Virus record (IMG/VR): IMGVR_UViG_3300006737_000228
Span: 1-23,297 of that record
DNA from: a virus
Reading direction: 5' to 3' (one strand)
Length of the DNA stretch: 23,297 nucleotides
The notes beneath the pieces were generated by a model. It was given only the letters and a program-made list of their open reading frames with translations, was not told the DNA's origin and did not search any database. How positions within the stretch are numbered: the stretch's first letter is position 1; each line of letters starts with the position of its first letter. A program made the position numbers and the translations under genes. Below, piece after piece: positions 2,722 to 22,412 of this stretch.

Positions 2722-2722
2722 C

Positions 2723-3274: not shown

Positions 3275-3275
3275 T

Positions 3276-5385: not shown

Positions 5386-5394
5386 AATATTTTT

Positions 5395-6787: not shown

Positions 6788-6829
6788 AATTTTTATTTTT
6801 TAATTATTAATAAATGTGTACTATTATAA

Positions 6830-8248: not shown

Positions 8249-8684
8249 TTGATCTTTGTTTATCTTGATTAACGAAGCTTATAGCTTTAGCTGTAACCTT
8301 CCATGAGTATTTATTATTATCACTCAAATATTTAGTAGGCATATCTTCTTCGCCTAACATAAAACGGTACATACGTGAGATTAGCTGTTTGCACTTATAG
8401 GAAACTTTATATATATGATATTTTTGAGTAGTGCGATTTCTCTCTCTCCACACCTTTATCCACTCTTGTTTCAATAATCTGTTCCAGCGTCTATTGTCCC
8501 AGCTATATGAGTAAGTACCTTTTTTAAAATCATCTTTATTAAACAAATCTATAGCATCTAGATATATTAATAATTCTAAATCTGCATCGTTTATGCCATA
8601 AGTTTTGCACGCCCACTTTCTAATTATTCTATAGTGTTTAAGTAGATTTAACTCTTTTAAATCATTAGAACTTACTCTTCTCAC
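8238..8684 (-). CDS. Winged-helix-like protein, possible DNA-binding regulator
   Basis: The protein has 148 residues. LLKHYRIIRKWACKTYGINDADLELLIYL (about residues 14-42) is a helix-turn-helix-like opening. SYSWDNRRWNRLLKQEW follows, then a 'WRERNRTTQKYHIYKVS' strand pair (about 79-95) that would form the wing, and a helix. This is the layout of MarR-like winged-helix proteins and of a family known from marine phages. Binding DNA near the late promoter is possible, but residues cannot be proven. It starts 1 base after the stop of the upstream gene. Confidence 0.45.
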   Translation of the reverse strand: MRRVSSNDLKELNLLKHYRIIRKWACKTYGINDADLELLIYLDAIDLFNKDDFKKGTYSYSWDNRRWNRLLKQEWIKVWRERNRTTQKYHIYKVSYKCKQLISRMYRFMLGEEDMPTKYLSDNNKYSWKVTAKAISFVNQDKQRSNVI

Positions 8685-8685
8685 G

Positions 8686-9396: not shown

Positions 9397-9662
9397 AATA
9401 TTATAACTACATCATGTTCTTTAATTACTTTCCAAAGTTCGCCTTTAATTTCTATATTAAATCCGGCTGCTTTATCATAGTATATTTTATTATCTTTTTT
9501 TAAACCTTTAACATCAGATCCTACAGCAACCACATCAGCTTCTCTATATCTTACGTCTTCTCGCTGATCTTCGCCTAATATTAAACCAGCTTTAGTTTTT
9601 ACAGATACTTCTTTTTTAGGACTTATTACTATATACTTACCTACGGCTTTCATCTCTAACAT
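9393..9662 (-). CDS. groES: Phage GroES co-chaperonin
   Basis: The protein has 89 residues. It matches GroES order: an N-terminal strand (GKYIVISPKKE), a mobile loop with the hydrophobic triplet AGLILG (L27 I28 L29, corresponding to the E. coli IVL motif), a strand VVAVGSD (45-51), IYYDKAAG and an ELWKVIKEHDVVIIL end strand (75-89). It caps the GroEL ring, making the folding chamber. The start overlaps the groEL tail by 26 bases (or 17 if the internal Met4 is used), so groES follows groEL here, the reverse of the bacterial groESL order. It probably helps fold phage structural proteins. Confidence 0.85.
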   Translation of the reverse strand: MLEMKAVGKYIVISPKKEVSVKTKAGLILGEDQREDVRYREADVVAVGSDVKGLKKDNKIYYDKAAGFNIEIKGELWKVIKEHDVVIIL

Positions 9663-11195: not shown

Positions 11196-11229
11196 TTTAT
11201 TTAATTTAATATTATTTGTTTGAATACTT

Positions 11230-11520
11230 TTACTCGAAGGTTTTAACTACTTTCGGTCCTTTGGTAAATTCTAACTTTTTCTTATAGTGTTCAATTGAAC
11301 TATCTATTGCTTGTTCAGCTCCAGTTATCGTTTCTCTTCTGGTAACATCATGCCACTCATTTGAGTTCATGTCTTTGTATTCGGTTTGTAAAAATCCATT
11401 AGGTAATTGAACAATTCTCCAGTTTTTCTTCTGTGTAATATGTTCCCATAATTTAATGGTCTCTTCGTTTGGTTGTGGTGCACTAGTCCACGAGTTAGTG
11501 CGGGTATATAAAAACGTCAT
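11230..11520 (-). CDS. Unrecognised small protein upstream of groEL
   Basis: The protein has 96 residues. The first part contains a Trp-rich segment (SWTSAPQPNEETIKLWEH, about residues 10-27) and a second WRIVQLPNGFLQTEYKDMN. The remainder is charged and helical (ITGAEQAIDSSIEHYKKKLEF). It has an A-rich leader typical of the window. No family is recognised. Its position between the fibre cluster and groEL gives no strong hint. Confidence 0.55.
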   Translation of the reverse strand: MTFLYTRTNSWTSAPQPNEETIKLWEHITQKKNWRIVQLPNGFLQTEYKDMNSNEWHDVTRRETITGAEQAIDSSIEHYKKKLEFTKGPKVVKTFE

Positions 11521-11557
11521 TGTATTTGGTTTTTAGTTATTATTGGTTGTTATTTAT

Positions 11558-11573
11558 AGTATCACTTGATACT
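11558..11573. repeat. Inverted repeat between fibre gene and small gene
   Basis: A perfect seven-base inverted repeat (AGTATCA, two-base loop, TGATACT) lies in the 62-base gap. It has no U-run on either strand, so it is a weak terminator candidate at best. It might instead be an RNA-processing or regulatory site separating the fibre genes from groEL. Confidence 0.3.
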
Positions 11574-11582
11574 TAATAGGTT

Positions 11583-11816
11583 TTACTCTTCGTAAGCTAA
11601 GTTTCTCCAGAATAGGGTTCCTCTTTCAGGATCAACTGTAACTACTTCTACTTTATCAGTGCTGGTATTATATCTTATCATACCCTCTACTGCTGTTGGT
11701 CTTTGTGCTGTAGTACCTACCGGCAACTGTATGTAACCGGTAGAGTCTACTTTTAAATTACCTTCTACTTCTAGAAAGTCAGATATGTTTACTTGTTGCA
11801 GAAAAACTATAGGCAT
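11583..11816 (-). CDS. Short fibre-like protein, mini-paralogue of the next gene
   Basis: The protein has 77 residues. Its N-terminus (MPIVFLQQVNIS) parallels the N-terminus of the upstream 472-residue fibre protein (MAIQFLQDIDLN). Its middle GYIQLPVGTTAQRPTAVEG followed by MIRYNTSTDKVEVV is a strand-turn motif common in phage fibres. It appears to be a shortened or split fibre module. Stop and start lie within 1 base of the upstream gene, so it is the end of a coupled fibre operon. Confidence 0.5.
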   Translation of the reverse strand: MPIVFLQQVNISDFLEVEGNLKVDSTGYIQLPVGTTAQRPTAVEGMIRYNTSTDKVEVVTVDPERGTLFWRNLAYEE

Positions 11817-11817
11817 C

Positions 11818-13236
11818 TTATCCTATTTTAATACACATTACTCTATATCTACCCGATGTAATAGTGCTTGCGTAGTTTACAGTAACTGCGCTTGTACTTG
11901 TTCTTACTACGTCAGCATATACAGTTTGTCCATATGAAGATAGCTCATTATCATTGTCATATATTTGAACTACCACATCTCTAGTACCTAAGTTATGTGT
12001 GTATATTACTGATGATGTACTTGTATTACCTTCTGTAGCTATAACACTTTGTGATCCTGCAGTTATTGATGATGTACTAGCAGCTGTTATTTGACCACGA
12101 GCATTAACAGTTATAACTGGTATTGCTGTAGCACCACCATAACTTCCAGCACTTACTGTTGTATCACTTATATCTACTGCACCTGCAGCATCTACAGTTA
12201 AACCTGAGTTAGAAGCAAATGAAGCTATACCAGGCGTAGTTGCAGTAGCAAGTCCAATGTTTTTGTTAACTACAACATAGTCTGTTAAAGCTACCGAGTC
12301 ACCAGAACTTTTAGCTACTTCTGATATAATTAAATCACCAACCTCAACAGTGTCAGTAAAGAAACTACCTGCAACAGTTACTACATAAGTATCACCTATT
12401 GCAATGTCTATACCTAGTGTTGCATCACCAATATCAGGTGTATTAAGAGTAGCGTTGTATCCACCTTTAAATGTCATACCACCTGAACCAGGAGACACAT
12501 AGGTTTTTAAAGCTGCTAATGTAGTTTCTACTACGGTAGTATTACTAGATTCACCAGCTTGACTCACTATCATAGTATCAGCATCTTCTAACGCACTTGC
12601 AGCAGTTGCATTTGTAATAAGAGTATTACCAGTAGTTGGACCATATTGAAGGTTAAGATCTATTCTAGATGAAGTTGAACTAGGATTAGTTTGAGTAGGT
12701 ATTACTACTCCACTCTGAGATCTAAAATCAACAGTATTTCTAGTAGCATCTATTGTTTCAGTAGTTGCTGTAGAACCATTGTTACTTGATAAAGTCCACG
12801 ATGTGAAAGAACTTCCTGAACCACTTGAAGCGGCGGTAATTAAACCTTTTGCGTTAACAGTTATGTTAGCATTTGTAAACGAACCTACGTTACTGTTTAC
12901 TGTCTTTAATGTAGAAGTTAAAGATAATGAACCACCACCTGCGTTAGCAGCTACGTAGTCAATATCACTACTTGTAAAAGTAACTGTATTAGTACTTTCT
13001 ACATTTTCCGAGTTAGGAGTACCTGCATTGTCTTTTAATACCCATCTATTATAATCTGCTACTAGTTGTACCCAAGCACTGCCATTAAAATATCTTAATT
13101 GATTAGATGAGGTTTCATATATTAATCTACCGGTTACCTGTCCTGATCCACCAGGATTACCAGATACGCTATCAACTACAACTTCTTTTATTTCTGCTAA
13201 GTTTAAGTCAATATCCTGTAAAAATTGTATTGCCAT
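11818..13236 (-). CDS. Tail-fibre/appendage protein
   Basis: The protein has 472 residues and is Ser/Thr/Val/Gly-rich, the usual composition of beta-repeat fibres. Features: N-terminal anchor (about 1-50) with GRLIYETSSNQLRYFNGSAW; two copies of a 'xVNAxGxITAAS' element (NITVNAKGLITAAS around 124-137 and VITVNARGQITAAS around 372-385); and a C-terminal THNLGTRDVVVQIYDNDNE strand segment, a motif shared with the next fibre protein. It is probably host-receptor binding. No depolymerase catalytic motif was seen. Confidence 0.6.
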   Translation of the reverse strand: MAIQFLQDIDLNLAEIKEVVVDSVSGNPGGSGQVTGRLIYETSSNQLRYFNGSAWVQLVADYNRWVLKDNAGTPNSENVESTNTVTFTSSDIDYVAANAGGGSLSLTSTLKTVNSNVGSFTNANITVNAKGLITAASSGSGSSFTSWTLSSNNGSTATTETIDATRNTVDFRSQSGVVIPTQTNPSSTSSRIDLNLQYGPTTGNTLITNATAASALEDADTMIVSQAGESSNTTVVETTLAALKTYVSPGSGGMTFKGGYNATLNTPDIGDATLGIDIAIGDTYVVTVAGSFFTDTVEVGDLIISEVAKSSGDSVALTDYVVVNKNIGLATATTPGIASFASNSGLTVDAAGAVDISDTTVSAGSYGGATAIPVITVNARGQITAASTSSITAGSQSVIATEGNTSTSSVIYTHNLGTRDVVVQIYDNDNELSSYGQTVYADVVRTSTSAVTVNYASTITSGRYRVMCIKIG

Positions 13237-13246
13237 TTTTATTTTT

Positions 13247-13807
13247 TTAGTTTAGATACGCAAAACCAGCTACAGCTGACTTAAACGTTATTGTTAAATT
13301 GTTTTTATCCGTATATACCAGAGCACCGTACATTTCTTCGTTACTGGTATTTACTGTTATAACTGATGGATATTTATCTAAGTTATGATTTATACTCCAA
13401 GTCGCAGTAGCTGATCCACCTCCTACTGTGAATATAAAAGTATCAGAAGTTATATCTGCTACACTAGAGTTGTTTGTTACTTTAAAAAGTCCTTTATAAT
13501 TTATAGTACTTGTAGTTACTACTGAAGATCCGTCTTGTTGTACATCTACACTTCCTGCTCCTCCTCCTTTAGCTACAAAATTACTATCAGCTACACCACC
13601 CTGAAACCAGTATTCTACTATATTACTACCGCTTGCTATTAAACCTGCCGTTAAACCTTCAAATCTAAAACCAGCTGTTATATTAGTTAAGGCATCATTT
13701 TTAGCATCTGTTAAAGTTGCACCTGTAAAAGGTCCATACTTAGAGTCTACAGGCTTTGTTGTACCTACTAATATACTCGACGATAATTCTATTCCTGGTA
13801 AACTCAT
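13247..13807 (-). CDS. Short fibre / fibre-tip-like protein
   Basis: The protein has 186 residues. Early residues contain a KYGPFTGATLTDAKNDAL segment and ITAGFRFEGLTAGL. The C-terminus has SINHNLDKYPSVITVNTS, then GALVYTDKNNLTITFKSAVAG and FAYLN, a strand motif common at the ends of marine phage fibre and appendage proteins and also present in diverged form in the downstream 472-residue protein. Receptor binding is inferred. It starts 1 base from the stop of the upstream large gene. Confidence 0.55.
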   Translation of the reverse strand: MSLPGIELSSSILVGTTKPVDSKYGPFTGATLTDAKNDALTNITAGFRFEGLTAGLIASGSNIVEYWFQGGVADSNFVAKGGGAGSVDVQQDGSSVVTTSTINYKGLFKVTNNSSVADITSDTFIFTVGGGSATATWSINHNLDKYPSVITVNTSNEEMYGALVYTDKNNLTITFKSAVAGFAYLN

Positions 13808-13808
13808 A

Positions 13809-15371
13809 CTAACTATTTCTTAATTGCATCGTTGAACCTGTAAGAGTTAACGAAGAGTTTGACGTATGTATTTTAAAAGATATACCAGACCATAAGCCTG
13901 TAGGTGAGTTTGCTGAAGATGTAGCTACAGCGTTAAACACTACTGTTATTGCGCCTTGATCTAGGCTAGTTACAAAATACTTTGTTTTAGTTGTGTTTGT
14001 TGCAGGATATGCTACAGCTAAAAATTCATTGTTTATTGCTAGTGGTATATTTATAGTGCCTGATGCCGAAGCAACAATAGCAACTGCTGTACCATTTTGT
14101 ATAGCTGTAACCATATCAGCTGTTGATATAGCACCAGCTTGTCTAAAATGATAAAATGGATATAAACCTGTTATAGTTCTATTAACACTATTAAAGCCAG
14201 TACTAGCAGCTTGAGGATTATTAACTGATCTTACTGCTGCAGGTCTAGTATCATCTACACCTTTACTATCTTTCAAAGCTAAACCAGCATCATAGTTTGC
14301 GGTTGATCCATAAACCACAGATGAGGTAGAACCACTTGCTGGAGCTGGTATTACTAAACCTGTGTCTGTAAAAGATTTTCCGTAACTTTTGTTAGGGTTA
14401 TTAGCATTGGCAAATCCAAACTGAGATGGTAAGTTAGATGCTGAACTTTCAATAGGTGCTCCAGAAATTAATGTAGAAGCTGATCCATTTACTGTTTTAG
14501 TTATTGATATATCAGTGTATATACCTGCATCATTTTTATTACCGCCTGCCGTTAACGCTGGACTATGTGTAGTTCCAACTTCTTTTGTTCCTGTTACTGT
14601 AGAACTTAAAGTTCTAGTTGGTATTGTATATAATGGTAGTGCAGTTGGAAATAGTAGCTCATCAAATATAGAAACAATTGTATCTCCTTTTAAATCTGCT
14701 ACTGTAGTTCCTGAAGGTATACCACCTAAATCACTTGTAGTTGCTATAGCATCTCCTAACGATGTATTATATACTGCGTTTACATCTACTTTACCTGCGG
14801 TACCTGCGTCGTCTACCGCTGCAAAACCACTTATAAAGTTTAAATCTGTTACATCTGTATCTACTGCAATACCGCCTTGCGATACTGTTAACGCGGATCC
14901 AGATCCGCCTGTAGATTCTATCTGTATTTCAGTAGAACTTACTTGAGTTAGTGTTATATTACTACCTTCTGATAGTTCTACTAAAGAGTTATCTGTACCT
15001 GAACCAGATGTTAAATTCAAAGGTACTTTAATTCCTGATTTAGGACCTGCATTTAAATCATATGTGTCACCAGGTGTTCCACTAGATGCAGCAATAGTAA
15101 TCTGGGCAGAATTATCACGCGTTAAGGTGATATTCGACCCAGCTACTACTTTAATTTGGGAATTATCTACTCCAAGACTGGACGTAAGATTTAAATCTAC
15201 GTTTGATCCGTCTGCAGTGGCATTTAAATCGTAATCATTAACACCTATTGCCGGTTTTAAACTCGATAGTGTAGCTTTTTTAGTATTTAAATTGTCTGAA
15301 CTATCGGATAATATGATTAAATCCGCGGCAACTGGCGTTAATTTACTAGGGTACGTGTAAATTATAGCCAC
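13809..15371 (-). CDS. Fibre-like protein with tandem 50-residue repeats
   Basis: The protein has 520 residues. Residues 47-96 and 104-153 are two tandem copies of one module that start YDLNA, pass a NLTS-D-NS turn, reach GSNITLT and end ITIAAS or IQIES. The same module is frequent in marine phage fibres. The rest is Thr/Ser/Gly/Ala-rich, with a probable beta-helix or trimeric body and a C-terminal STMQLRNS strand. No enzyme motif was seen. Together with the next three genes it forms the host-contact cluster. Confidence 0.6.
   Translation of the reverse strand: MAIIYTYPSKLTPVAADLIILSDSSDNLNTKKATLSSLKPAIGVNDYDLNATADGSNVDLNLTSSLGVDNSQIKVVAGSNITLTRDNSAQITIAASSGTPGDTYDLNAGPKSGIKVPLNLTSGSGTDNSLVELSEGSNITLTQVSSTEIQIESTGGSGSALTVSQGGIAVDTDVTDLNFISGFAAVDDAGTAGKVDVNAVYNTSLGDAIATTSDLGGIPSGTTVADLKGDTIVSIFDELLFPTALPLYTIPTRTLSSTVTGTKEVGTTHSPALTAGGNKNDAGIYTDISITKTVNGSASTLISGAPIESSASNLPSQFGFANANNPNKSYGKSFTDTGLVIPAPASGSTSSVVYGSTANYDAGLALKDSKGVDDTRPAAVRSVNNPQAASTGFNSVNRTITGLYPFYHFRQAGAISTADMVTAIQNGTAVAIVASASGTINIPLAINNEFLAVAYPATNTTKTKYFVTSLDQGAITVVFNAVATSSANSPTGLWSGISFKIHTSNSSLTLTGSTMQLRNS
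14913..15233 (-). repeat. Two tandem 150-base coding repeats in the fibre gene
   Basis: Repeat 1 (15084-15233) and repeat 2 (14913-15062) encode the two similar 50-residue modules of the fibre protein, separated by a 7-codon linker. They agree at the protein level but much less at the DNA level, which suggests an old duplication. They mark a modular fibre shaft. Confidence 0.65.
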
Positions 15372-15383
15372 AATTAATTATAT

Positions 15384-16454
15384 TTATTTTTTCTTTCCGC
15401 CTTTGTTATGAGCCATGTGTTTACTTATAGAACTTCCCATCATGGATAGTCCTTTTCCACCTGTACCTGTTTTAACTTCAGGTCTTTCGTACATTCCGTA
15501 CTGTATTTTACCCATTGATGGTCCTTTGTATAGTCCACCTGACTTATGTAAACGTGACATCATTGGAGCATCTCCTTTATCCATAGCTTCTTTAGTTCTA
15601 TCTACTACCGGATTGTCTTTTAAATCAGCTTTTCTTTTTTCGCTTGCTGATTCCATGCTTAAAGCTTTCTTAACAGATTTAGCATCATCTTTAATAGGCT
15701 TAACGATGTTGTCTTCAAAAAAGTTTTTACCAAAAGTTTTGTTTTTAGCATCTACCACCGCGTCAACACCTGGCTTAATATACTTTTTGTAACTAGCTTT
15801 AGCGTCATCTTTTAAAGATTTAGCTCCATATTCAAAACCAGCTGCTACATTTTTAGCTGCTCTTTTCAAATCATCGCCAATACCCTCTTTATGTGGGCCT
15901 TTACCATGCTTCATTGCTGGTGCATAATCTTTCTTACCTGGTTTAGTTTTAGATTTATCACCTTTGTTTCCACCTAATACTACTCTATCGTATTTTGCTG
16001 GTCCTTGTGCTGCTTGTTTAGCCGCGCCTGCTACTGCAGCTCCAACTTTCCCAGCTTTTTTTACAGCTCCTTTTACTTTAGCTCTAGTTTTTTTAGCTGC
16101 TCCTGCTGCTTTTTTAGCTGCTTTTACTCCAGGTGAATTTTTTACAGCTTTAACTCCTACTTTTACTGCTTTCTTAGCTAACTTCTTAGCTCCTGCTTTA
16201 ACTTTACCTTTAACTGCTTGTCTTTTTTCTACTCTTGCAGTTTTCTTATCTTGTCTTGCAGCTTGTCTTCCTGCTTTTGCAGCAGACTTAGCTTCCTTAG
16301 CTCCAGCTTTAGCAGTTTTTACCGCTGCCTTAGCCCTTGTTTTAGCAGCTTTACCTGCTTTACCTCGAGCTTCTTGTCTATCTGCTCGGGCTTCTTTACG
16401 TGCTGCTTTTCTTTTTAGCTTATCAGCCTTAGCAGCGGGTGCTTTATAATCCAT
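15384..16454 (-). CDS. Lys/Ala-rich histone H1-like protein
   Basis: The protein has 356 residues. About residues 1-155 are almost entirely Lys, Ala, Arg and Gly, with repeated KAA/AKA/KAG blocks (for example KAAKTRAKAAVKTAKAGAKE), the composition of histone H1 C-terminal tails and bacterial histone-like proteins. The C-terminal half is more normal, with YKKYIKPGVDAVVDAKN at about 225-241 and a Met/Gly-rich end. It is the first left-arm gene after the switch region, so a role in DNA condensation or in shielding phage DNA is plausible, as is a disordered virion scaffold. It was not recognised as a defined family. Confidence 0.5.
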   Translation of the reverse strand: MDYKAPAAKADKLKRKAARKEARADRQEARGKAGKAAKTRAKAAVKTAKAGAKEAKSAAKAGRQAARQDKKTARVEKRQAVKGKVKAGAKKLAKKAVKVGVKAVKNSPGVKAAKKAAGAAKKTRAKVKGAVKKAGKVGAAVAGAAKQAAQGPAKYDRVVLGGNKGDKSKTKPGKKDYAPAMKHGKGPHKEGIGDDLKRAAKNVAAGFEYGAKSLKDDAKASYKKYIKPGVDAVVDAKNKTFGKNFFEDNIVKPIKDDAKSVKKALSMESASEKRKADLKDNPVVDRTKEAMDKGDAPMMSRLHKSGGLYKGPSMGKIQYGMYERPEVKTGTGGKGLSMMGSSISKHMAHNKGGKKK

Positions 16455-16552
16455 TTTAAAATGTTTTAGTTGTTTTATAATTAATTGTGACTACGAATCG
16501 TGTACAATATATAGATGTTACATGTTATTACTATTTTTTACATTTACATTTA

Positions 16553-16596
16553 GTGACACTTGCCCCTTATTAAGTAACTTATAAGGCTAATGTCAC
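16553..16596. repeat. Long imperfect hairpin in the switch region
   Basis: Arms GTGACA and TGTCAC (6 bp) enclose a second stem, CCTTAT with a bulged T and AAG, pairing with CTTATAAGG around a TAA loop. The stem is strong for such an AT-rich region. No U-run follows on the plus strand within 5 bases, and none on the minus strand, so a simple intrinsic terminator is not indicated. It may be a regulator-binding or bidirectional-termination structure. Confidence 0.45.
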
Positions 16597-16640
16597 ATTT
16601 ATTTTTAGAAGTATTGGAGTTTTTCATTGCACTACCACAA

Positions 16641-16709
16641 TATAATTTTGTTATAAATAAAAAACGATATATATAATTGCGGGCCCCCGTATGTTTTTAT
16701 AATTTTGTT
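16641..16709. repeat. Direct repeats flanking a GC-rich palindrome
   Basis: TATAATTTTGTT occurs at 16641-16652 and again at 16698-16709. Between them lies GCGGGCCCCCGT (16679-16690), a GC patch with palindromic GGGCCC core in very AT-rich surroundings. Direct repeats plus a GC palindrome occur in origin or regulatory regions, but no other origin signs (such as DnaA-box-like repeats) were found. Confidence 0.4.
16677..16707 (+). promoter_or_regulatory. Possible Bacteroidota-type host promoter for right arm
   Basis: TAATTTTG (16700-16707) fits the Bacteroidota minus-7 box TAnnTTTG, and a TTG (16677-16679) lies 20 bases upstream, the usual distance for the minus-33 element. It faces the right arm and could be the first host-read early promoter. 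The sequence is a loose match and the AT-rich context makes chance likely. Confidence 0.35.
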
Positions 16710-16766: not shown

Positions 16767-16798
16767 GTACAAACTAACTACGATGCATGTTGGATAAT
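16767..16798 (+). promoter_or_regulatory. Bipartite promoter-like element, copy 1
   Basis: GTACAAACTAACTACGA, then eight variable bases, then GGATAAT (16792-16798). It is one of eight copies with a constant spacer and lies upstream of the 38-residue membrane peptide, 23 bases before its ATG. The conserved half contains ACTACGA rather than AATACGA. See the findings for the two models of its function. Confidence 0.6.
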
Positions 16799-16821
16799 AA
16801 TATCAAATAACAATTAACAAT

Positions 16822-16938
16822 ATGAAAACTTTACAAAACATTTTACCATTAATATTTATCACAACATTAATTACTTTGATAACATATAACATAATAGTAA
16901 ACGGAATAATTAATTATATTTCTTTTAACGGAATTTAA
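16822..16938 (+). CDS. 38-residue membrane peptide
   Basis: The frame is unbroken and starts at an ATG 23 bases after promoter-like copy 1. It is almost wholly hydrophobic (ILPLIFITTLITLITYNIIV, residues 7-26), so it is probably one membrane helix with a polar NGIINYISFNGI tail. No family is recognised. It is one of several tiny membrane peptides in this arm, as often seen in early phage takeover genes. Confidence 0.5.
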   Translation: MKTLQNILPLIFITTLITLITYNIIVNGIINYISFNGI

Positions 16939-16939
16939 A

Positions 16940-16971
16940 TTACAATATTACTACGATACTAAATGGATAAT
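16940..16971 (+). promoter_or_regulatory. Bipartite promoter-like element, copy 2
   Basis: TTACAATATTACTACGA, eight variable bases, GGATAAT (16965-16971). It begins 2 bases after the stop of the 38-residue peptide gene. The ATG of the 85-residue gene follows 25 bases after GGATAAT. Confidence 0.6.
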
Positions 16972-16996
16972 ATAATAAACAATTAAACTAATAATA

Positions 16997-17254
16997 ATGA
17001 ATATAAATAACTTACCTACATTACTAAACGAATATAAAAACGGAAATGGCTATATAGAATACCTCATCGATAATGAAGAATATTCTGACCAGCATGACAA
17101 TTACACAATTGAAAATAGTCTAATAGTATATGAATACATTCATAACATAAACGAAATAGTAATTGAACTAATAAATAACAACATTGAATTTACTCATCAC
17201 ATAGATGATTCTGATATGTCTTACTTACTAATTAATAAAAACTTATTTATATAA
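16997..17254 (+). CDS. Unrecognised 85-residue protein
   Basis: It reads as a helical, acidic and Asn-rich protein (NNLPTLLNEYKNGNGYIEYLI at the start). An IEIxxxxEFTHHID-like segment occurs near 62-73, with D and H residues that could bind metal but no defined motif. The leader is a run of A/T without a Shine-Dalgarno sequence. It lies after promoter-like copy 2 and before the next membrane peptide. It was not recognised. Confidence 0.55.
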   Translation: MNINNLPTLLNEYKNGNGYIEYLIDNEEYSDQHDNYTIENSLIVYEYIHNINEIVIELINNNIEFTHHIDDSDMSYLLINKNLFI

Positions 17255-17314
17255 ATAGAAATACAGTTTAACACATACTAACTAATTTTAACTAATAAAC
17301 AAATATACACTCTT

Positions 17315-17395
17315 ATGATACTAATAATTTTACCAATACTAATAATAACTACAATAATCTTAATTGATATTATAAATGAAATTATTACAAACTAA
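17315..17395 (+). CDS. 26-residue membrane peptide
   Basis: The peptide is nearly all Ile, Leu, Thr, Pro and Val (LIILPILIITTIILIDII, residues 3-20), so it is a single membrane helix. Its final codons and stop (TTACAAACTAA) are the first bases of promoter-like copy 3. Because the DNA serves both roles, the coding function could be a by-product of the element, so confidence is limited. Confidence 0.4.
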   Translation: MILIILPILIITTIILIDIINEIITN

Positions 17396-17416
17396 AAACG
17401 AACGTAATTGGATAAT
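17385..17416 (+). promoter_or_regulatory. Bipartite promoter-like element, copy 3
   Basis: TTACAAACTAAAAACGA, eight variable bases, GGATAAT (17410-17416). The first 11 bases supply the C-terminal Thr-Asn codons and the TAA stop of the preceding peptide. The next ATG (17462) is 45 bases further, after an AAAAT-repeat leader. Confidence 0.6.
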
Positions 17417-17461
17417 ATAAACAACTAAACTAAATTAATAATAAAATAAAATAAAATAAAT

Positions 17462-17701
17462 ATGAAAACTAATAAACTAACAACAAAAAGATTTGTAATC
17501 AGAAAAAGTTTACTTAATACAAATACAGTAATCACTTTCACTAACAATAAAAATGTAACTTTTACTTATGACCATGATGAAATTTACTCAACATTTCAAG
17601 AAAAGTTTGAAAGTATGCCGTGTTTTCAAGAGTATAAATCTTACACAAATAGTAATACTGTTCCAAAATTCTGCAGAGAATTATCAGAAATTACTCAGTA
17701 A
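17462..17701 (+). CDS. Unrecognised 79-residue protein
   Basis: It has a basic N-terminus (TNKLTTKRFVIRKSLL, residues 3-18), then strand-like VITFTNNKNVTFTY, and a helix with a C residue pair (MPCFQEYKS, CRELSEIT). Some small single-domain phage proteins look like this, but no family is identified. It lies downstream of copy 3 and upstream of the structured non-coding segment. Confidence 0.55.
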   Translation: MKTNKLTTKRFVIRKSLLNTNTVITFTNNKNVTFTYDHDEIYSTFQEKFESMPCFQEYKSYTNSNTVPKFCRELSEITQ

Positions 17702-17710
17702 TATAATAAA

Positions 17711-17821
17711 GTCCAGTTAGTTCTACTCGTTTACTGGTAAATCAAAAATGAACGAGTGTATATAGCCGACGAGTATATAAATACTTGGGAAAGAGGTGAG
17801 GTTCGACTCCTCACTCGGTTA
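17711..17821 (+). ncRNA. Structured non-coding RNA-like segment with T-arm-like hairpin
   Basis: A first hairpin pairs ACTCGTT (17725-17731) with AACGAGT (17751-17757), and a nested TTTAC/GTAAA (17730-17741) sits in its loop; CCAGT (17713-17717) with ACTGG (17733-17737) is an alternative pairing. The 3' end (TGAGG, TTCGACT loop, CCTCA, 17797-17813) matches the GTTCRANYC signature of a tRNA T-arm, with CTCGGTT as an acceptor-like 3' strand. The best 5' partner (AGCCGAC, 17764-17770) pairs 6 of 7 but leaves only 26 bases for the D and anticodon parts, so it is not a normal tRNA. It ends inside promoter-like copy 4. Confidence 0.4.
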
Positions 17822-17850
17822 CAAACTAAATACTATCCAAAGTGGATAAT
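17819..17850 (+). promoter_or_regulatory. Bipartite promoter-like element, copy 4
   Basis: TTACAAACTAAATACTA, eight variable bases, GGATAAT (17844-17850). It differs from consensus at the last two bases of the first block. The first two bases are shared with the acceptor-like 3' end of the structured segment. The ATG of the next gene (17878) follows 27 bases later, after an A/T-only leader. Confidence 0.6.
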
Positions 17851-17877
17851 ATAATAAACTAAATAAAATAAATAACT

Positions 17878-18075
17878 ATGTATAATCCTAATTCCCCTTC
17901 AAACTGGTCTTGGTCTAAAGCTTTCGCTGAAATGGAAAAGACAGTAAATCAAGCTGAACTCACTCAGCAAATTATAAATCACTTACACAACTATGATGGT
18001 GGTGAAAAAGTATTCAAACAACTTGACAAAGAAAATCAAGAAGAAATGTATAACATCTTAACTCAAATATTATGA
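17878..18075 (+). CDS. Small 65-residue helical protein
   Basis: The N-terminus is Trp/Ser/Asn-rich (SNWSWSKAF), then a helix runs through MEKTVNQAELTQQIINHLHN and EKVFKQLDKENQEEMYNIL. It has no recognised family. Its stop overlaps the start of the next gene (ATGA), so the pair is translationally coupled. Confidence 0.6.
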   Translation: MYNPNSPSNWSWSKAFAEMEKTVNQAELTQQIINHLHNYDGGEKVFKQLDKENQEEMYNILTQIL

Positions 18076-18284
18076 ATAATTTAAATACTACAATAGATAA
18101 AATAGCAATGTCAGAATTTGATATGCACTATCATCAACTCGGTGACAATGAAAAACAATGGTGTCATGATGAAATGGTAAATAATAAAAAGTGGTTAAAA
18201 AAAGACTGGGAAGACCCATTGTGGTCTGTATCCGCGAAGTGGAAAGCTGGTTTACCAATATATAAAACTTATATAAATGAATAA
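18072..18284 (+). CDS. Small 70-residue protein
   Basis: The protein is helical and acidic at the start (NTTIDKIAMSEFDMHYHQLG) with a Trp-rich C-terminal half (WLKKDWEDPLWSVSAKWK). The start is set by the ATGA overlap with the upstream gene, and its own end overlaps the next start by 8 bases. No family is recognised. It is part of a run of four coupled genes (17878-18575). Confidence 0.6.
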   Translation: MNNLNTTIDKIAMSEFDMHYHQLGDNEKQWCHDEMVNNKKWLKKDWEDPLWSVSAKWKAGLPIYKTYINE

Positions 18285-18477
18285 TTTTCCTCAACAAACA
18301 TTAACTATATTAGATTTTGGTAGTGGTGAAGTACATCAATATCATAATGTAAACTACGAGAAATATGAAATGGAACTTGACGAGTTTGTTTCTGTACAAC
18401 TCGGATATAATCTAAATGAAGTGGACTATATGTTCCATACTGATAATACTATTTACGATTTAACTAATGAACTATGA
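18277..18477 (+). CDS. Small 66-residue acidic protein
   Basis: It reads as beta-alpha (LTILDFGSGEVHQYHNVN, about 8-25), with many acidic residues and a YMFHTDNTIYDLTNEL end. It was not recognised. Overlaps with both neighbours (8 bases upstream, ATGA downstream) support translation as part of a coupled string. Confidence 0.6.
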   Translation: MNNFPQQTLTILDFGSGEVHQYHNVNYEKYEMELDEFVSVQLGYNLNEVDYMFHTDNTIYDLTNEL

Positions 18478-18575
18478 AAAAAAGAACTGATTTTACAACA
18501 GATAGTAGCGAAGTAATGTTATACTTTATAATATGTGCAATAGTAACAATACTATGGGCTTACGTTACAAACTAA
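18474..18575 (+). CDS. 33-residue membrane peptide
   Basis: A polar N-terminus is followed by a hydrophobic helix at about 14-31 (VMLYFIICAIVTILWAYV). It starts at an ATGA overlap with the preceding gene. The last codons (Val-Thr-Asn) and stop overlap the first bases of promoter-like copy 5. It is a candidate host-membrane modulator. Confidence 0.5.
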   Translation: MKKRTDFTTDSSEVMLYFIICAIVTILWAYVTN

Positions 18576-18596
18576 ATACGATAACTTATGGATAAT
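18565..18596 (+). promoter_or_regulatory. Bipartite promoter-like element, copy 5
   Basis: TTACAAACTAAATACGA (the consensus form), eight variable bases, GGATAAT (18590-18596). The next gene's ATG (18603) is exactly 6 bases later. Its first bases also encode the C-terminus and stop of the 33-residue peptide. Confidence 0.65.
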
Positions 18597-18602
18597 AAAA
18601 AT

Positions 18603-18857
18603 ATGAAATATATAATGACAGATAACTTAGAAATAATTGACTATGGTGATGGTAGTGGCAAACTACAAATCTACAACAAGTACAAATCTCCGTACGGTTG
18701 GTCACCACGTAAGCTTATCGTCTCTCATTTAGGTAAACCACTAAAAGAAATTACGTATGACTACGTACAAAAAGAAGTAGACAAAGTGTATTCTACTTTC
18801 AACTATGACGAAATACACGAACTAATAAACAAAATAAATAAAACAAATGATAACTAA
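18603..18857 (+). CDS. 84-residue protein, start set by promoter-like element
   Basis: An upstream in-frame ATG at 18588 lies inside the promoter-like element, so the ATG at 18603, 6 bases after GGATAAT, is preferred. The protein reads YIMTDNLEIIDYGDGSGKLQ at the start, then KYKSPYGWSPRKLIVSHLG and a helix. It is beta-rich and unrecognised. Its end overlaps the next start by 11 bases. Confidence 0.6.
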   Translation: MKYIMTDNLEIIDYGDGSGKLQIYNKYKSPYGWSPRKLIVSHLGKPLKEITYDYVQKEVDKVYSTFNYDEIHELINKINKTNDN

Positions 18858-19002
18858 AACACTTAACAAAATAGGTACGTTCTTAGTAGAATGGTACATG
18901 CTAAAAATATATGCTACAATAATGACAATATTCTTTTTGTCAATATGGATTCCAGCAATGGTAATGATATTCAAAGAAATAATTGCTACATTCTGGTTAT
19001 AA
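18847..19002 (+). CDS. 51-residue membrane protein
   Basis: Unbroken frame ending in Trp-Leu. A basic N-terminus (MITKTLNKIG) is followed by hydrophobic stretches around 16-33 and 36-50 (IYATIMTIFFLSIWIPAMVM), so one or two membrane helices. Its start overlaps the upstream gene by 11 bases. It was not recognised. Confidence 0.5.
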   Translation: MITKTLNKIGTFLVEWYMLKIYATIMTIFFLSIWIPAMVMIFKEIIATFWL

Positions 19003-19004
19003 TT

Positions 19005-19175
19005 ATGACTGAACAAGAAGTAATATACAAAGTATGTGACAGAGTTGTCAATACTATATACAATGAGCTAGACTACTATATGTTTGAAGAACTAGGTTAC
19101 ACTGAAACTGATGACAAGTATGTTGAAGATGCAGATAAATTAATAATCAAAGTATTAAAAGAATTAACTAAATAA
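19005..19175 (+). CDS. 56-residue acidic helical protein
   Basis: The ATG at 19005, just after the stop of the membrane gene, is preferred because a longer in-frame start at 18891 would run through that gene. The protein is an acidic helix, TEQEVIYKVCDRVVNTIYNE, followed by a Tyr/Asp-rich segment (EELGYTETDDKYVEDADKLI). It was not recognised. Confidence 0.55.
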   Translation: MTEQEVIYKVCDRVVNTIYNELDYYMFEELGYTETDDKYVEDADKLIIKVLKELTK

Positions 19176-19176
19176 T

Positions 19177-19371
19177 ATGGCAAATATGAGTTACTGCAGG
19201 TTTGAAAATACTGCAAGAGATTTAGTAGACTGTGTAAACGCTATAAGACAAGGTGAAATACACGAGTTAAACAACTACGAGCTAGATGGTTTAAAAGATA
19301 TACTAGATCTAGCTGAACAAATAGTAGAAGATAAAGAATATATACAAAAAATAATAGAAAATTATGAATGA
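19177..19371 (+). CDS. Conserved-looking small protein (MANMSYCRFENTA type)
   Basis: The start MANMSYCRFENTARDLVDC (1-19) is a pattern that recurs in small phage and bacterial proteins of unknown role. The rest is a helix rich in Glu, Leu and Ile (LNNYELDGLKDILDLAEQIV). It may be a conserved early gene of many phages. Its stop region overlaps the next gene's start (8 bases). Confidence 0.6.
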   Translation: MANMSYCRFENTARDLVDCVNAIRQGEIHELNNYELDGLKDILDLAEQIVEDKEYIQKIIENYE

Positions 19372-19534
19372 ATTAAGAGCCATTGAGGCAATAACAAAAG
19401 ATATATTATCTGGTTTGTATGGAACTATACAACAAGCAGGTACAGAAACACAAAAATATGCTTATGCTTATTTACAAGCTAAGCAAATATATAATGGCGA
19501 CTTAATAATAGATTTAGAAAATGGCTTTGATTGA
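19364..19534 (+). CDS. 56-residue helical protein
   Basis: It starts at an ATG 8 bases before the upstream stop, within the chain of overlapping genes. The N-terminal helix is LRAIEAITKDILSGLYG. TETQKYAYAYLQAKQIY follows, then an acidic end. It overlaps the next gene by 14 bases. It was not recognised. No other frame is open in this interval. Confidence 0.55.
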   Translation: MNELRAIEAITKDILSGLYGTIQQAGTETQKYAYAYLQAKQIYNGDLIIDLENGFD

Positions 19535-19700
19535 ATTTAATGGCGGTGAGTATCAAGAACTAGAAGACGCTAAAACACTGAAAGCAGTAATGTTTCTAAT
19601 GATACAAGAGCATGTGAGAAGTATACCTAATGATCAAGAATTAGGTGCAAGAATAAGACAAATAATACTAAAATTTAACAAAAATAATGAAAACAATTAA
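19521..19700 (+). CDS. 59-residue small protein
   Basis: Starts MALIEFNGGEYQELEDAK with a helix (TLKAVMFLMIQEHVRS, about 19-34) and a charged helix ending KFNKNNENN. It overlaps the genes on both sides by 14 bases, so it is in a coupled string. It was not recognised. Confidence 0.55.
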   Translation: MALIEFNGGEYQELEDAKTLKAVMFLMIQEHVRSIPNDQELGARIRQIILKFNKNNENN

Positions 19701-19830
19701 ATTCTACCCAAGTAATAGGTCTATTATAAGATTAGACGGAAAAATGTATAAAGGTTATACTTTAAATGATGTTCCATATGAAAGAAATGCGTGGTTTAAC
19801 TACAAAGGTTTAACTTTTGTTACAGACTAA
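19687..19830 (+). CDS. 47-residue small protein ending at promoter-like element
   Basis: Reads MKTIKFYPSNRSIIRLDGKM (1-20), then YKGYTLNDVPYERNAWFNYK. Small and beta-like, it may be an SH3-like or OB-like mini-domain, unproven. Its last codons and stop (TTACAGACTAA) are the first bases of promoter-like copy 6. It overlaps the upstream gene by 14 bases. Confidence 0.55.
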   Translation: MKTIKFYPSNRSIIRLDGKMYKGYTLNDVPYERNAWFNYKGLTFVTD

Positions 19831-19851
19831 ATACGATAAATGTTGGATAAT
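19820..19851 (+). promoter_or_regulatory. Bipartite promoter-like element, copy 6
   Basis: TTACAGACTAAATACGA, eight variable bases, GGATAAT (19845-19851). The ATG at 19858 lies exactly 6 bases later. Its first 11 bases code for the end of the upstream protein. Confidence 0.65.
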
Positions 19852-19857
19852 ATATAC

Positions 19858-20091
19858 ATGAATACAACAATACAAACAAAACTATGTAAATGTGGCAAAC
19901 AAGAGCTACATCCAGTAAGAATTAAGTATGGCTATGACACTTGTGTCAGCTGTAGTACCGCCGAGAAGTACGGGTGCGTTGATATTATACATCACAAAAC
20001 AGGTAACAACATACAAATACTATCAAGAGAAGATGCAGATACTATCGCTAAACTCACCCGTAGACGCGGTTACGGTACATATCTAAGATAA
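19858..20091 (+). CDS. Zinc-ribbon-like small protein
   Basis: A potential start at 19840 lies inside the promoter-like element, so the ATG 6 bases after GGATAAT is chosen (77 residues). Cys residues C10, C12, C29 and C32 form a CxC/CxxC zinc-binding pattern (LCKCGKQE, CVSCSTAE). The C-terminus is basic (LTRRRGYGTYLR). It is probably a small metal-binding protein, possibly DNA- or polymerase-binding like DksA/TraR-type fingers, but the family is not identified. Structured RNA element A starts on the base after its stop. Confidence 0.6.
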   Translation: MNTTIQTKLCKCGKQELHPVRIKYGYDTCVSCSTAEKYGCVDIIHHKTGNNIQILSREDADTIAKLTRRRGYGTYLR

Positions 20092-20156
20092 CACGAATAG
20101 CAAGAAGCTTAAGACATCGCTTGCAGCTCATACTTGATCAGTATGGGCTTTTCGTG
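20092..20156 (+). ncRNA. Structured RNA leader, element A
   Basis: Closing stem CACGAA (20092-20097) with TTCGTG (20151-20156), inner stem GCAAG (20100-20104) with CTTGC (20120-20124), and GCTCATACT (20126-20134) with AGTATGGGC (20140-20148). The third stem is followed by TTTT, so it also resembles an intrinsic terminator. The ATG of the next gene lies 2 bases after the closing stem. Element B has the same layout with compensating base changes. No tRNA T-arm is present, so it is not a tRNA. Confidence 0.5.
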
Positions 20157-20158
20157 GT

Positions 20159-20323
20159 ATGAGTAATAAACAACAAACAATTACCAAACAATTACAAAAT
20201 TTGTATTCTTGGACACAATTCTATCAAAACAGAGGTAATAAAGATCAAATAAGAAAGTGTCAAACTCAGATCGCCGAGTTAAAAAAGGCGTATAATCAAA
20301 CTAAAACTAAGAAAAATGGCTAA
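20159..20323 (+). CDS. 54-residue helical protein behind RNA leader A
   Basis: Starts at the ATG 2 bases after the closing stem of element A. The protein is Gln/Asn/Lys-rich helical (QTITKQLQNLYSWTQFYQNR, about 6-25) with a basic C-terminus (NQTKTKKNG). It overlaps the next start by 8 bases. The first codons ATGAGTAAT resemble the ATGAATAAT of the gene behind element B, though the proteins are otherwise unrelated. Confidence 0.55.
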   Translation: MSNKQQTITKQLQNLYSWTQFYQNRGNKDQIRKCQTQIAELKKAYNQTKTKKNG

Positions 20324-20729
20324 AGAAAGAGATATAAATGAGCTAAGACAAACTAAAGATGCTCACTATGTTCACCCAACTTTTAATCTTAAATCAGGTT
20401 TTCAAGGCGGTGACTTTATAAAACCAACTGATAAACCAGCTAAAACAACAAAAGAAATATTGGAAGAAAGAATTATTGAACTAGATGATCTAGAACAAGC
20501 TAAATGTTCTATAGCAGAAAAAATAACTAAACACTTTGATGATGTAATGTTTGAAATGGTAAATGAAGAAATGAGTAAAAACTTTTTATTCCAGTCAGAC
20601 AACTACTTAACTGAAGCAGGATATGATATGTTTGAAGATGAGTGGTTTGAATTTTACCACGAGCATCACGGAGATATTATGCACCAAGTTATGCAGAATA
20701 TTACAGCCACAACCTATATCAAGCACTAA
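20316..20729 (+). CDS. 137-residue acidic protein
   Basis: N-terminal AKERDINELRQTKDAHYVHP, then a polar stretch and helices rich in Glu and Phe (FDDVMFEMVNEEM, DMFEDEWFEFYHEHHGD). HEHHGD near residue 116 is histidine-rich but not a known metal motif. It was not recognised. It continues the chain after the gene behind element A. Confidence 0.55.
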   Translation: MAKERDINELRQTKDAHYVHPTFNLKSGFQGGDFIKPTDKPAKTTKEILEERIIELDDLEQAKCSIAEKITKHFDDVMFEMVNEEMSKNFLFQSDNYLTEAGYDMFEDEWFEFYHEHHGDIMHQVMQNITATTYIKH

Positions 20730-20733
20730 ATAT

Positions 20734-20934
20734 ATGAAGAAATTTAATAAAATGGAGTCTAATCTTATACTTGATTCAATTAATTATTATGTAGCAAACT
20801 TAGAACAAGAAATAAAAGAAATGGAAAAAACAGGTAGAAGTTCAATATTTGCACCTGGTTTCTATTCAATGTTTGCTGATGAATTAATAGAAAAAGTAAA
20901 GACCATGACTAAAAAAGACAAATTTACAAGCTAA
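20734..20934 (+). CDS. 66-residue small protein
   Basis: The start at 20734 fits the 4-base gap behind the preceding stop; longer in-frame starts further up would overlap that gene heavily. Basic N-terminus (KKFNKMESN), a helix with LEQEIKEMEKTGRSSI, then FAPGFYSMFADELIEK. Its last codons and stop (TTACAAGCTAA) are the first bases of promoter-like copy 7. It was not recognised. Confidence 0.55.
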   Translation: MKKFNKMESNLILDSINYYVANLEQEIKEMEKTGRSSIFAPGFYSMFADELIEKVKTMTKKDKFTS

Positions 20935-20955
20935 ATACGAACACTAAAGGATAAT
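20924..20955 (+). promoter_or_regulatory. Bipartite promoter-like element, copy 7
   Basis: TTACAAGCTAAATACGA, eight variable bases, GGATAAT (20949-20955). The next ATG (20962) is exactly 6 bases later. The first 11 bases encode the end of the preceding protein, including its stop. Confidence 0.65.
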
Positions 20956-20961
20956 ACAAAT

Positions 20962-21183
20962 ATGTTATACGATAAATTAAAACCACATATCAAAGCTAAG
21001 ATGAAAGAGAATGCTGAACAGTATCCCTCTGTAAACTTCCTCTTTGATACAATTAAAACCAAATACCTTTACTCTGAATTAACTATTGAAGAAATAAGAT
21101 CTATCTGTACATTTGGCGATGTATGGTATTATGATCTTACACAAAAAGACTTAATATGGGGTGAATGGTTAGTAAATAAATAA
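20962..21183 (+). CDS. 73-residue protein
   Basis: Helical, starting LYDKLKPHIKAKMKENAEQ. The second half is aromatic (TFGDVWYYDLTQKDLIWGEW). It was not recognised; the aromatic C-terminus suggests a small folded domain. It lies 6 bases after GGATAAT, which fixes the start. Confidence 0.6.
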   Translation: MLYDKLKPHIKAKMKENAEQYPSVNFLFDTIKTKYLYSELTIEEIRSICTFGDVWYYDLTQKDLIWGEWLVNK

Positions 21184-21185
21184 AT

Positions 21186-21533
21186 ATGAACGAAGAACAA
21201 CTAGCAATAAATACGCTTAAAGCACTAGGTGCTAAAGATACAACAAGTAATGCACAAAAAAATCATGGCACAACTTGTTTTACATTACCAACAGGTAGAT
21301 GTGTATCTGAACATAAAACAGGTTATATAAGAGTAAATATGTTGAATAAAAACGGCAGTATTTACACCTGTTATCAGCTAAATCCACAATATAAAGCTCC
21401 ATACAAAGTTATAGCAAGAAATGGAGACAAGTATGAGTGGCATCATAACAAAAGAATGTTGATAATGAACCGAGCTGAAAGGCTAAAAAGACTTGTATTA
21501 TATGCAATTAAAGATATAAACTCTAGCAAATGA
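21186..21533 (+). CDS. 115-residue protein
   Basis: Begins NEEQLAINTLKALGAKDTTS, then two Cys-containing strands (TTCFTLPTGRCV) and GYIRVNMLNKNGS. The C-terminal part has RNGDKYEWHHNKRMLIMNRA, basic and His/Trp-rich. Possible nucleic-acid-binding; no family is recognised. Its stop overlaps the next ATG (ATGA). Confidence 0.55.
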   Translation: MNEEQLAINTLKALGAKDTTSNAQKNHGTTCFTLPTGRCVSEHKTGYIRVNMLNKNGSIYTCYQLNPQYKAPYKVIARNGDKYEWHHNKRMLIMNRAERLKRLVLYAIKDINSSK

Positions 21534-21619
21534 GCAATGAATTAAGACAAGCGATTTTTATAGCTACGCTTAGTGTAGCTGTATTAATCGGTATGGTAAT
21601 AATATTTTTAACAAACTAA
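21530..21619 (+). CDS. 29-residue membrane peptide
   Basis: Single hydrophobic helix (IFIATLSVAVLIGMVIIF, 9-26) with an SNELRQ start and Leu-Thr-Asn end. The ATGA overlap with the preceding gene supports translation. The end has the first block of the repeat in degenerate form (ACAAACTAAAT) but lacks GGATAAT, so no promoter is claimed there. Confidence 0.45.
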   Translation: MSNELRQAIFIATLSVAVLIGMVIIFLTN

Positions 21620-21629
21620 ATTAAATAAA

Positions 21630-22079
21630 ATGGAATCAAAAGAACCAGATCATGAAAAAATAATAGAAGCTGTAAAAAAGTATTATGGCTTAGAAATAGA
21701 TGCTAATGCTTTTCAACATGCAGATGTGTATGCTTACGAAGAATCTACAACTGATGGTTATTCTTTATTTGTGGTAACACACGACATGAGAGAAGTATGT
21801 ATACCTGAAGATGTATATTACTACGATCATGGTGTAGCTGAAAGAATAATGGAATTAGTAGGATACTGTAATGGTCACTGTACTTTATATGCAGATGATT
21901 ACTTCTTAGATGATATATGCTTTGATGATGCACTATTAGAAGCATTTCCAGAAATAGCAGATAAGATATATGACAATATTGTAAATGATGAAGAAAATTA
22001 TGACTTTGACGAAGCAGAATTGCAATGGCTTAAAGAAGAATATACTGAATCAGAAGAAATTAATCAGACTGTTAGTTAG
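21630..22079 (+). CDS. 149-residue very acidic protein
   Basis: Glu/Asp-rich throughout (DIDADAF-like ELIDAN segment near 21, YYYDHG, DDYFLDDICFDD). Helices alternate with short strands. Strong acidity and small size are typical of phage proteins that mimic DNA or inhibit host proteins, but this is speculation. It is the largest complete gene in the right arm. Non-coding until element B. Confidence 0.6.
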   Translation: MESKEPDHEKIIEAVKKYYGLEIDANAFQHADVYAYEESTTDGYSLFVVTHDMREVCIPEDVYYYDHGVAERIMELVGYCNGHCTLYADDYFLDDICFDDALLEAFPEIADKIYDNIVNDEENYDFDEAELQWLKEEYTESEEINQTVS

Positions 22080-22097
22080 TTAATAGTAGTTTAGTTT

Positions 22098-22163
22098 CCA
22101 CGAATAACAATTAGGATAGCGCAGCGGCGTAGCTCGTACTCAAAAGGTACGGGCTTTTCGTGG
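22098..22163 (+). ncRNA. Structured RNA leader, element B
   Basis: Closing stem CCACGAA (22098-22104) with TTCGTGG (22157-22163), a small inner stem GCGC/GCGT (22119-22122, 22127-22130) and GCTCGTAC (22132-22139) with GTACGGGC (22147-22154) around TCAAAAG. TTTT follows. In comparison with element A the third stem changes as paired bases (CG to CA and CG to TG), supporting RNA structure. The GATAGCGCAGCGG part resembles a tRNA D-arm but a T-arm is missing. Confidence 0.5.
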
Positions 22164-22164
22164 T

Positions 22165-22380
22165 ATGAATAATATAAATATGATGAAAGCGTTTATGTTG
22201 TTAGGTGATCTATCAACTAAACAAGGCGACGAGCTATCAGATATGGCCGTCAAATACCAAGAAAGAATAGCTTTTGCTACAATGAGAGCTAGCATACCTG
22301 ATTGGCAACCACCAAAAGACTGGGATAATTTAAGTAATGAAGAAAAAAATAAAAGACTTAAAAAACTACAATCAGTGTAA
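22165..22380 (+). CDS. 71-residue protein behind RNA leader B
   Basis: Starts at the ATG one base after the closing stem of element B, parallel to the gene behind element A. N-terminal NNINMMKAFMLLGDLSTKQ, then a helix (DELSDMAVKYQERIAFATMRA), a Trp/Pro turn (IPDWQPPKDW) and a basic helical end. It was not recognised. A downstream in-frame Met exists at 22180, but the symmetry with element A favours this start. Confidence 0.55.
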   Translation: MNNINMMKAFMLLGDLSTKQGDELSDMAVKYQERIAFATMRASIPDWQPPKDWDNLSNEEKNKRLKKLQSV

Positions 22381-22412
22381 TTACAAACTAAATACGATTA
22401 CTAACGGATAAT
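22381..22412 (+). promoter_or_regulatory. Bipartite promoter-like element, copy 8
   Basis: TTACAAACTAAATACGA, eight variable bases, GGATAAT (22406-22412). The ATG (22419) is exactly 6 bases later. This copy lies just after, not inside, the upstream gene's end. Confidence 0.65.

Follow-up and report, generated by a model that had tools for sequence, protein, structure and literature searches.

A bipartite element recurring in uncultured phages is a putative promoter for a phage-encoded sigma70-family factor

Phage-encoded sigma factors that act on private promoters form an established class of regulator. The middle promoters of phage SPO1 have the form AGGAGA-N17/18-TTTNTTT, and the late promoters of T4 consist of TATAAATA with no -35 element. 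At T4 MotA middle promoters and in PhoB-type class II activation, a box around -30 is combined with a sigma-type -10. The SPO1 proteins gp28 and gp34 and the T4 protein gp55 are phage sigmas that reprogramme the host core RNA polymerase for a temporal class of genes (PMC9429907). The podovirus-type phages phiEco32 and 7-11 encode their own sigma and use well-conserved, low-copy private promoters; host-type promoters have been proposed to start their programme, and phage promoters located upstream of the sigma gene provide positive feedback (PMC4331800). Here we describe an element that is probably (we estimate about 0.85) a promoter for the host RNA polymerase core associated with a phage-encoded sigma70-family factor.

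The window analysed is the whole of a 23,297-base IMG/VR record and represents a phage fragment. Leftward virion and lysis genes (terminase orthologue, amidase, holin, tail-fibre-like proteins) and GroEL/ES occupy positions 1-16454, and small genes run rightward from 16.8 kb onward. The original prediction listed eight copies of a bipartite element, TTACAAACTAAATACGA-N8-GGATAAT, in this right arm, and all eight positions were confirmed (Table 1). GGATAAT and the 8-base spacer are unbroken in every copy, each copy lies on the plus strand a short way upstream of a right-arm ORF, and no copy was found in the left arm of the window. The literal motif did not hold as an exact string, being perfect only in copies 5 and 8. 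When up to four mismatches were allowed, 8 sites were found in the window compared to a total of one in 100 dinucleotide-preserving shuffles of it. The ORF that follows copy 1 has a counterpart in the closest relative, G013, and the ORF that follows copy 3 is kept in four relatives.

Table 1. Putative promoter elements and neighbouring features of the window (+1, predicted start site)
Feature	Position	Strand	Remarks
Promoter element copy 1 (2 mismatches)	16767..16798	+	predicted +1 at 16805; upstream of 38-codon ORF from 16821
Promoter element copy 2 (4 mismatches, weakest)	16940..16971	+	predicted +1 at 16978; upstream of ORF 16997-17254
Promoter element copy 3 (1 mismatch)	17385..17416	+	predicted +1 at 17423; upstream of ORF 17462-17701
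Promoter element copy 4 (1 mismatch)	17819..17850	+	predicted +1 at 17857; upstream of ORF 17878-18075
Promoter element copy 5 (exact)	18565..18596	+	predicted +1 = ATG at 18603 (leaderless)
Promoter element copy 6 (1 mismatch)	19820..19851	+	predicted +1 = ATG at 19858 (leaderless)
Promoter element copy 7 (1 mismatch)	20924..20955	+	predicted +1 = ATG at 20962 (leaderless)
Promoter element copy 8 (exact)	22381..22412	+	predicted +1 = ATG at 22419 (leaderless)
ATP-dependent DNA ligase gene, 5' part, cut by contig end	22720..23297	+	HTH and sigma genes next on same strand in relatives
Weak candidate host-type promoter, TTG-N20-TAATTTTG, upstream of first element	16677..16707	+	sequence match

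The anatomy of the element was derived from 636 non-redundant copies gathered from 170 related loci around a linked sigma gene, numbered so that +1 is the base seven positions past GATAAT, i.e. the element start plus 38. The layout comprises a box at -38 to -22, eight bases with almost no conservation, position -13 (G in 68% and A in 25% of copies), GATAATA at -12 to -6 and a purine at +1. Every base of GATAATA, including A-11 and T-7, reached a frequency of at least 0.99 (179 copies). A-11 and T-7 are the bases flipped out by sigma70 region 2. A purine was present at +1 in 627 of the 636 copies (98.6%; A in 395, G in 232), compared to a purine share of 48-79% at +2 to +8 in the same set, and this constraint stands exactly at the sigma70-family start position. 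The element thus has both a -10-like hexamer in which A-11 and T-7 are conserved and, 7 nt further on, a purine at the start position; judged by sequence, this signature is that of a sigma70-type promoter with a longer box in place of the -35 element. Another repeated signal placed before genes, such as an operator, a translation-initiation site or an RNA-processing site, would be consistent with the A-rich region and with the four window copies that have only 6 nt between GGATAAT and ATG. We consider this very improbable, since the distance to the ATG ranges from 0 to more than 70 nt, in contrast to a constant spacing between box and core, the purine constraint falls right at a sigma-type +1, and the element is strongly linked to a sigma gene, as described below.

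Of 551 copies, 115 (21%) had an ATG precisely at +1, compared to 29 copies at the runner-up offset; this set was restricted to copies with a +1 purine and a downstream ORF of 35 codons or more, and the purine filter was not applied to the set of 636. In the window this was the case for four of the eight copies (5 to 8). Leaderless mRNAs are therefore predicted, and approximately one promoter in five probably makes an mRNA that begins at the start codon. The ORF calls at 18588 and 19840 have their starts within copies 5 (ATGGATAAT) and 6, respectively. Start codons that gene callers set inside the promoter, as at ATGGATAAT, can thereby be corrected, and start sites are predicted to the base. 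For comparison, only ~3.7% of 5' UTRs in B. thetaiotaomicron are shorter than 10 nt (PMC7366714). The copies with ATG at +1 are thus relevant to how translation is initiated in a phylum whose use of Shine-Dalgarno sequences is weak.

An exact scan for TACAANNTAAATACGAN8GGATAAT detected the element in at least 117 IMG/VR stretches, many of them on contigs of 40-70 kb. Among 11.3 million prokaryote contigs, the same pattern matched only seven stretches, for the most part in Flavobacteriaceae MAGs, and the element is nearly missing from 85,000 prokaryote genomes. In at least three of the seven, right-arm genes like those of these phages are present, and the contigs are therefore likely to be phage contigs. 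The element thus belongs to phages and is no general promoter of the host. The test in related phage genomes that had been proposed with the original prediction showed that the element recurs there: five fully read relatives (63-70 kb) have 5-12 copies each, all on one strand and only in the non-structural arm, and across the complete or near-complete relatives it is limited to the strand of that arm with rare exceptions. The outcome named as refuting the original prediction, with spaced pairs dispersed over coding DNA in unrelated phages, was looked for and did not occur; the element instead follows a sigma gene. Collectively, the copies look like switches by which many related, uncultured marine viruses of flavobacteria use their own sigma factor to redirect the RNA polymerase of the host. 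The group is mostly aquatic, we infer Flavobacteriia as its hosts, and no cultured member was found among reference phages.

The original prediction had noted a resemblance to T7-class promoters. Like the promoters of T7 (Autographiviridae), the element has AATACGA and then GG after a fixed gap, and its 5-12 copies per genome would suit a single-subunit RNA polymerase of the phage with its start at the GG. In contrast to T7, the gap is one base shorter (8 bases) and lacks CACTATA, so that the conserved sequence does not end at a +1 GG with T7 spacing. The G at -13 is not invariant, the AATACGA block is missing in some lineages, and the conserved start-site purine lies 13 nt downstream of the GG, seven past GATAAT. 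The search for a single-subunit RNA polymerase that the prediction had proposed gave no PF00940 match in any of 13 relatives of 62-70 kb (T7 positive control, 1e-109), the window itself being a fragment. A T7-class promoter is therefore the reading to which we give the least credence, close to none. The alternative offered alongside it, a sigma-type -10 GATAAT with an upstream site for a phage activator, fared better in its -10 and its upstream recognition site, with the amendment that these phages encode a sigma70-family factor.

This factor, found in near-complete relatives, is a protein of 249-254 residues that is present in all five fully read relatives, with 54-66% identity to the copy of G013. 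It matches sigma70 regions 2 and 4. Among 40 orthologues, Pfam detected region 2 in 35 and region 4 in 30, with weak region 4 scores in some members, and PDB sigma matches were obtained at 2e-8. The predicted fold was modest (pLDDT 78, pTM 0.48), and the domain assignment is therefore based on sequence profiles. In an alignment with SigA, W433/W434 of the E. coli protein correspond to K100/R101, Q437 to G104 and T440 to R107, and K100, R101, G104 and R107 are invariant in the 40 orthologues. T440 of sigma70 faces -12, and an arginine at the equivalent R107 would fit the invariant G-12.

The gene order in G013 is element, small gene, DNA ligase, HTH protein, sigma, ERF recombinase, exonuclease, 105-aa protein and primase/helicase. 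Copy 8 of the window stands before a small gene and a ligase orthologous to those of G013, and the contig ends within the ligase. By synteny, copy 8 would head the run of small gene, ligase, HTH protein and sigma; since the latter two follow the ligase on the same strand in relatives, the sigma gene of this phage is expected just beyond the contig end. Of 35 records with the motif, 30 contained the sigma, and the other five, of 49-61 kb and possibly fragments, gave no match. Conversely, the fetched DNA of 66 of 80 sigma loci contained the element, with 272 sites on the sigma strand, 2 on the opposite strand and none in reversed controls. In two loci (L214 and L279) the sigma gene itself begins at the +1 of such a promoter, which suggests positive feedback. 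The linkage to the sigma gene, the +1 signature and the failure to detect a T7-type polymerase in 13 relatives together argue well for a sigma-dependent promoter. The promoter-like nature of the element, and the phage-encoded factor that it had been taken to imply, were thus both supported.

Two sister genomes served as negative cases. The terminases of Elemovirus elemoF (a Flavobacterium phage, NC_055853) and Podoviridae sp. ctfjg026 (MW202828) share 46-65% identity with those of this group, and both phages likewise have GroEL/ES and divergent gene arms. No match to the sigma was found in either, and neither contained the element at up to six mismatches (the elemoF scan covered all but the last 10 kb, which lie inside a structural gene). 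MW202828 has instead ~12 copies of a palindrome, GTGTCGTTAACGACAC, mostly in the right arm. Element and sigma are thus inherited together, the element being absent from these two genomes in which no sigma was matched.

The upstream box is less constant than the -10. Some sigma loci have other boxes at the same spacing with GATAATA kept: TTCGAAACnTAATACGA in L157, L187, L204, L241 and L243, CACGGACTTAATA in L178, L228 and L229, CCCC..AACTAATTAC in L214, and TTACAAACTTAACACGA in L307. The box differs even among phages with nearly identical sigma proteins, while the -10 is fixed. A TACRA direct repeat with 11-bp spacing is seen in the canonical box; it is not preserved in other lineages and was dropped as a box feature for that reason. 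In most loci the gene of an HTH protein overlaps or abuts the sigma gene, and the 30 of 35 records with a sigma are also those in which it was detected, which makes this protein the first candidate for the box reader in most lineages.

Activators of the MotA/PhoB style bind near -30. The box described here is likewise centred near -30 and varies across lineages beside a constant sigma-type -10, and a phage protein such as the HTH neighbour, encoded next to the sigma in most loci, could bind it at -38 to -22 and activate host RNA polymerase with a host sigma, leaving the phage sigma to serve another promoter class. We regard this as unlikely. The HTH gene is absent from records with the TTCGAAAC box, three of which are 62-69 kb, and from L294, which still uses TTACAAAC; the same absences led us to reject the HTH neighbour as sole box reader. 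The element also goes together with the sigma gene and hardly occurs in host genomes. Its -10 is GATAATA, compared to a host -7 consensus of TAnnTTTG (PMC7366714), and TAnnTTTG at -7, the mark of promoters for the Bacteroidota host sigma (ABfr), was not found in the element, so that the mismatch noted in the original prediction is upheld. Host TAnnTTTG promoters were also rejected as the main system in the window, where matches occurred at chance level with one weak candidate (Table 1).

The sigma-4 recognition helix was in turn rejected as sole box reader, as L294 and L241 have an identical helix and different boxes. When sigma and HTH columns were scanned for mutual information with promoter positions, the top columns lay mostly outside the DNA-reading helices and were probably driven by clade. 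A fold search of the HTH protein gave no match at E<=0.001, and a comparison of gene content between phages with different boxes revealed no clear replacement DNA-binding protein. Tentatively, and with more doubt than confidence, we suggest a modular promoter code in which sigma and -10 would stay fixed and boxes (TTACAAAC..., TTCGAAAC..., CACGGAC... and CCCC..AAC) would be swapped between related phages through exchange of a separate recognition partner, perhaps separating the transcription of co-infecting phages, together with systematic leaderless mRNAs. Natural box variation on a nearly constant sigma makes the reader of the -35 region directly testable.

For the preferred sigma-dependent promoter, we infer from these data how the sigma would bind its elements, where transcription would start, and its timing, feedback and leaderless translation. 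Region 2 of the sigma would recognise GATAATA at -12 to -6, and the 17-bp block at -38 to -22 (TTACAAACTAAATACGA) would replace the -35 element and be read by region 4 and/or a phage cofactor. Transcription would begin at the conserved purine 7 nt past the -10, and at about one-fifth of promoters this would be the A of the start codon, giving a leaderless mRNA. Host RNA polymerase may make the first transcripts, after which the sigma would amplify the non-structural arm, its own gene run included, in positive feedback. The first sigma may come from a host-type promoter, for which Table 1 lists a weak candidate, or be brought in with the virion. No element was found upstream of the structural arm, and late transcription must therefore rely on something else.

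No published description of the element was found in the open-access literature, and this sigma/promoter family, the long box in the -35 region and the leaderless design appear to be undescribed. Together they yield a transcription programme that can be tested across this large group of predominantly aquatic, uncultured phages, as well as a sigma/promoter pair that is a candidate for orthogonal use in Bacteroidota. The element shares with MotA and PhoB-type promoters a box around -30 and a sigma-type -10, and differs in having GATAATA as its -10 and in the presence of a phage sigma. The sigmas of SPO1 (gp28 and gp34) and T4 (gp55) similarly act on the host core polymerase; the phages described here differ in promoter sequence, host phylum and phage family. 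The design also resembles that of phiEco32 and 7-11, with a podovirus-type phage, its own sigma, private low-copy promoters, a proposed host-type start and promoters before the sigma gene. The phage promoters of phiEco32 and 7-11 also drive structural genes (PMC4331800), in contrast to the present phages, in which no element was found before those genes and which further differ in their motif, in the 17-bp box that forms the -35 part and in the many predicted starts at ATG.

The bipartite promoter-like element (an upstream box, eight bases and GGATAAT) is not the only recurrent feature of the right arm. A distinct module consists of a hairpin followed by TTTTCGTGGTATG (GCTCGTACTCAAAAGGTACGGGCTTTTCGTGGTATG). 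Across the fetched loci 24 distinct copies were identified, and in 19 of these the position of the ATG was identical. The hairpin of the second window copy folded well (z -4.0), and that of the first was less clear. The module resembles a terminator that runs right up to the following start codon.

Table. Coordinates of the module copies, the HTH protein gene and the lone element copies
Feature	Location	Strand	Context
Hairpin-then-TTTTCGTGGTATG module, copy 1	20125-20168	+	window
Hairpin-then-TTTTCGTGGTATG module, copy 2	22131-22174	+	window
HTH protein gene, 206 aa	L121:3354-3971	-	plus orthologues
Lone element copy	L141:322	+	large flavobacterial MAG contig
Lone element copy	L142:181	-	large flavobacterial MAG contig
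Lone element copy	L143:4273	+	large flavobacterial MAG contig

Upstream of the virion genes, neither a copy of the element nor any other repeated promoter was found in the window (1-16454, minus strand) or in the structural arms of its relatives. The divergent junction between the arms (window 16500-16600) carries an interrupted inverted repeat, GTGACAC...CCTTAT...ATAAGG...TGTCAC, which is conserved at the junctions of the closest relative, G013, and of two further relatives, G012 and G001. Folding of this sub-stretch alone gave no significant structure. In the window, groEL is divided between two minus-strand ORFs, 10326-11195 and 9637-10320 (span 9637-11195); in G013 it is a single ORF of 515 aa. 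The two-ORF form reflects either disruption of the gene or an error in sequencing.

In most loci, the sigma gene overlaps that of an HTH protein by 14 or 4 nt. The HTH is located C-terminally in the L121 protein and its orthologues. The fold of the 206-aa protein was predicted confidently (pLDDT 88), with no PDB match at E<=0.001.

The element also occurs singly in three flavobacterial MAG contigs, from which the phage sigma is absent. One copy lies 5' of a 293-aa gene adjoining parA/parB, and in two MAGs the same secreted-protein-like start lies downstream. These copies may be due to chance, or the host genes behind them may be open to activation by a phage sigma. In the sister podovirus MW202828 the palindrome GTGTCGTTAACGACAC recurs about 12 times, chiefly in the right arm. 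Its annotation includes a repressor gene, and the palindromes are possibly operators.
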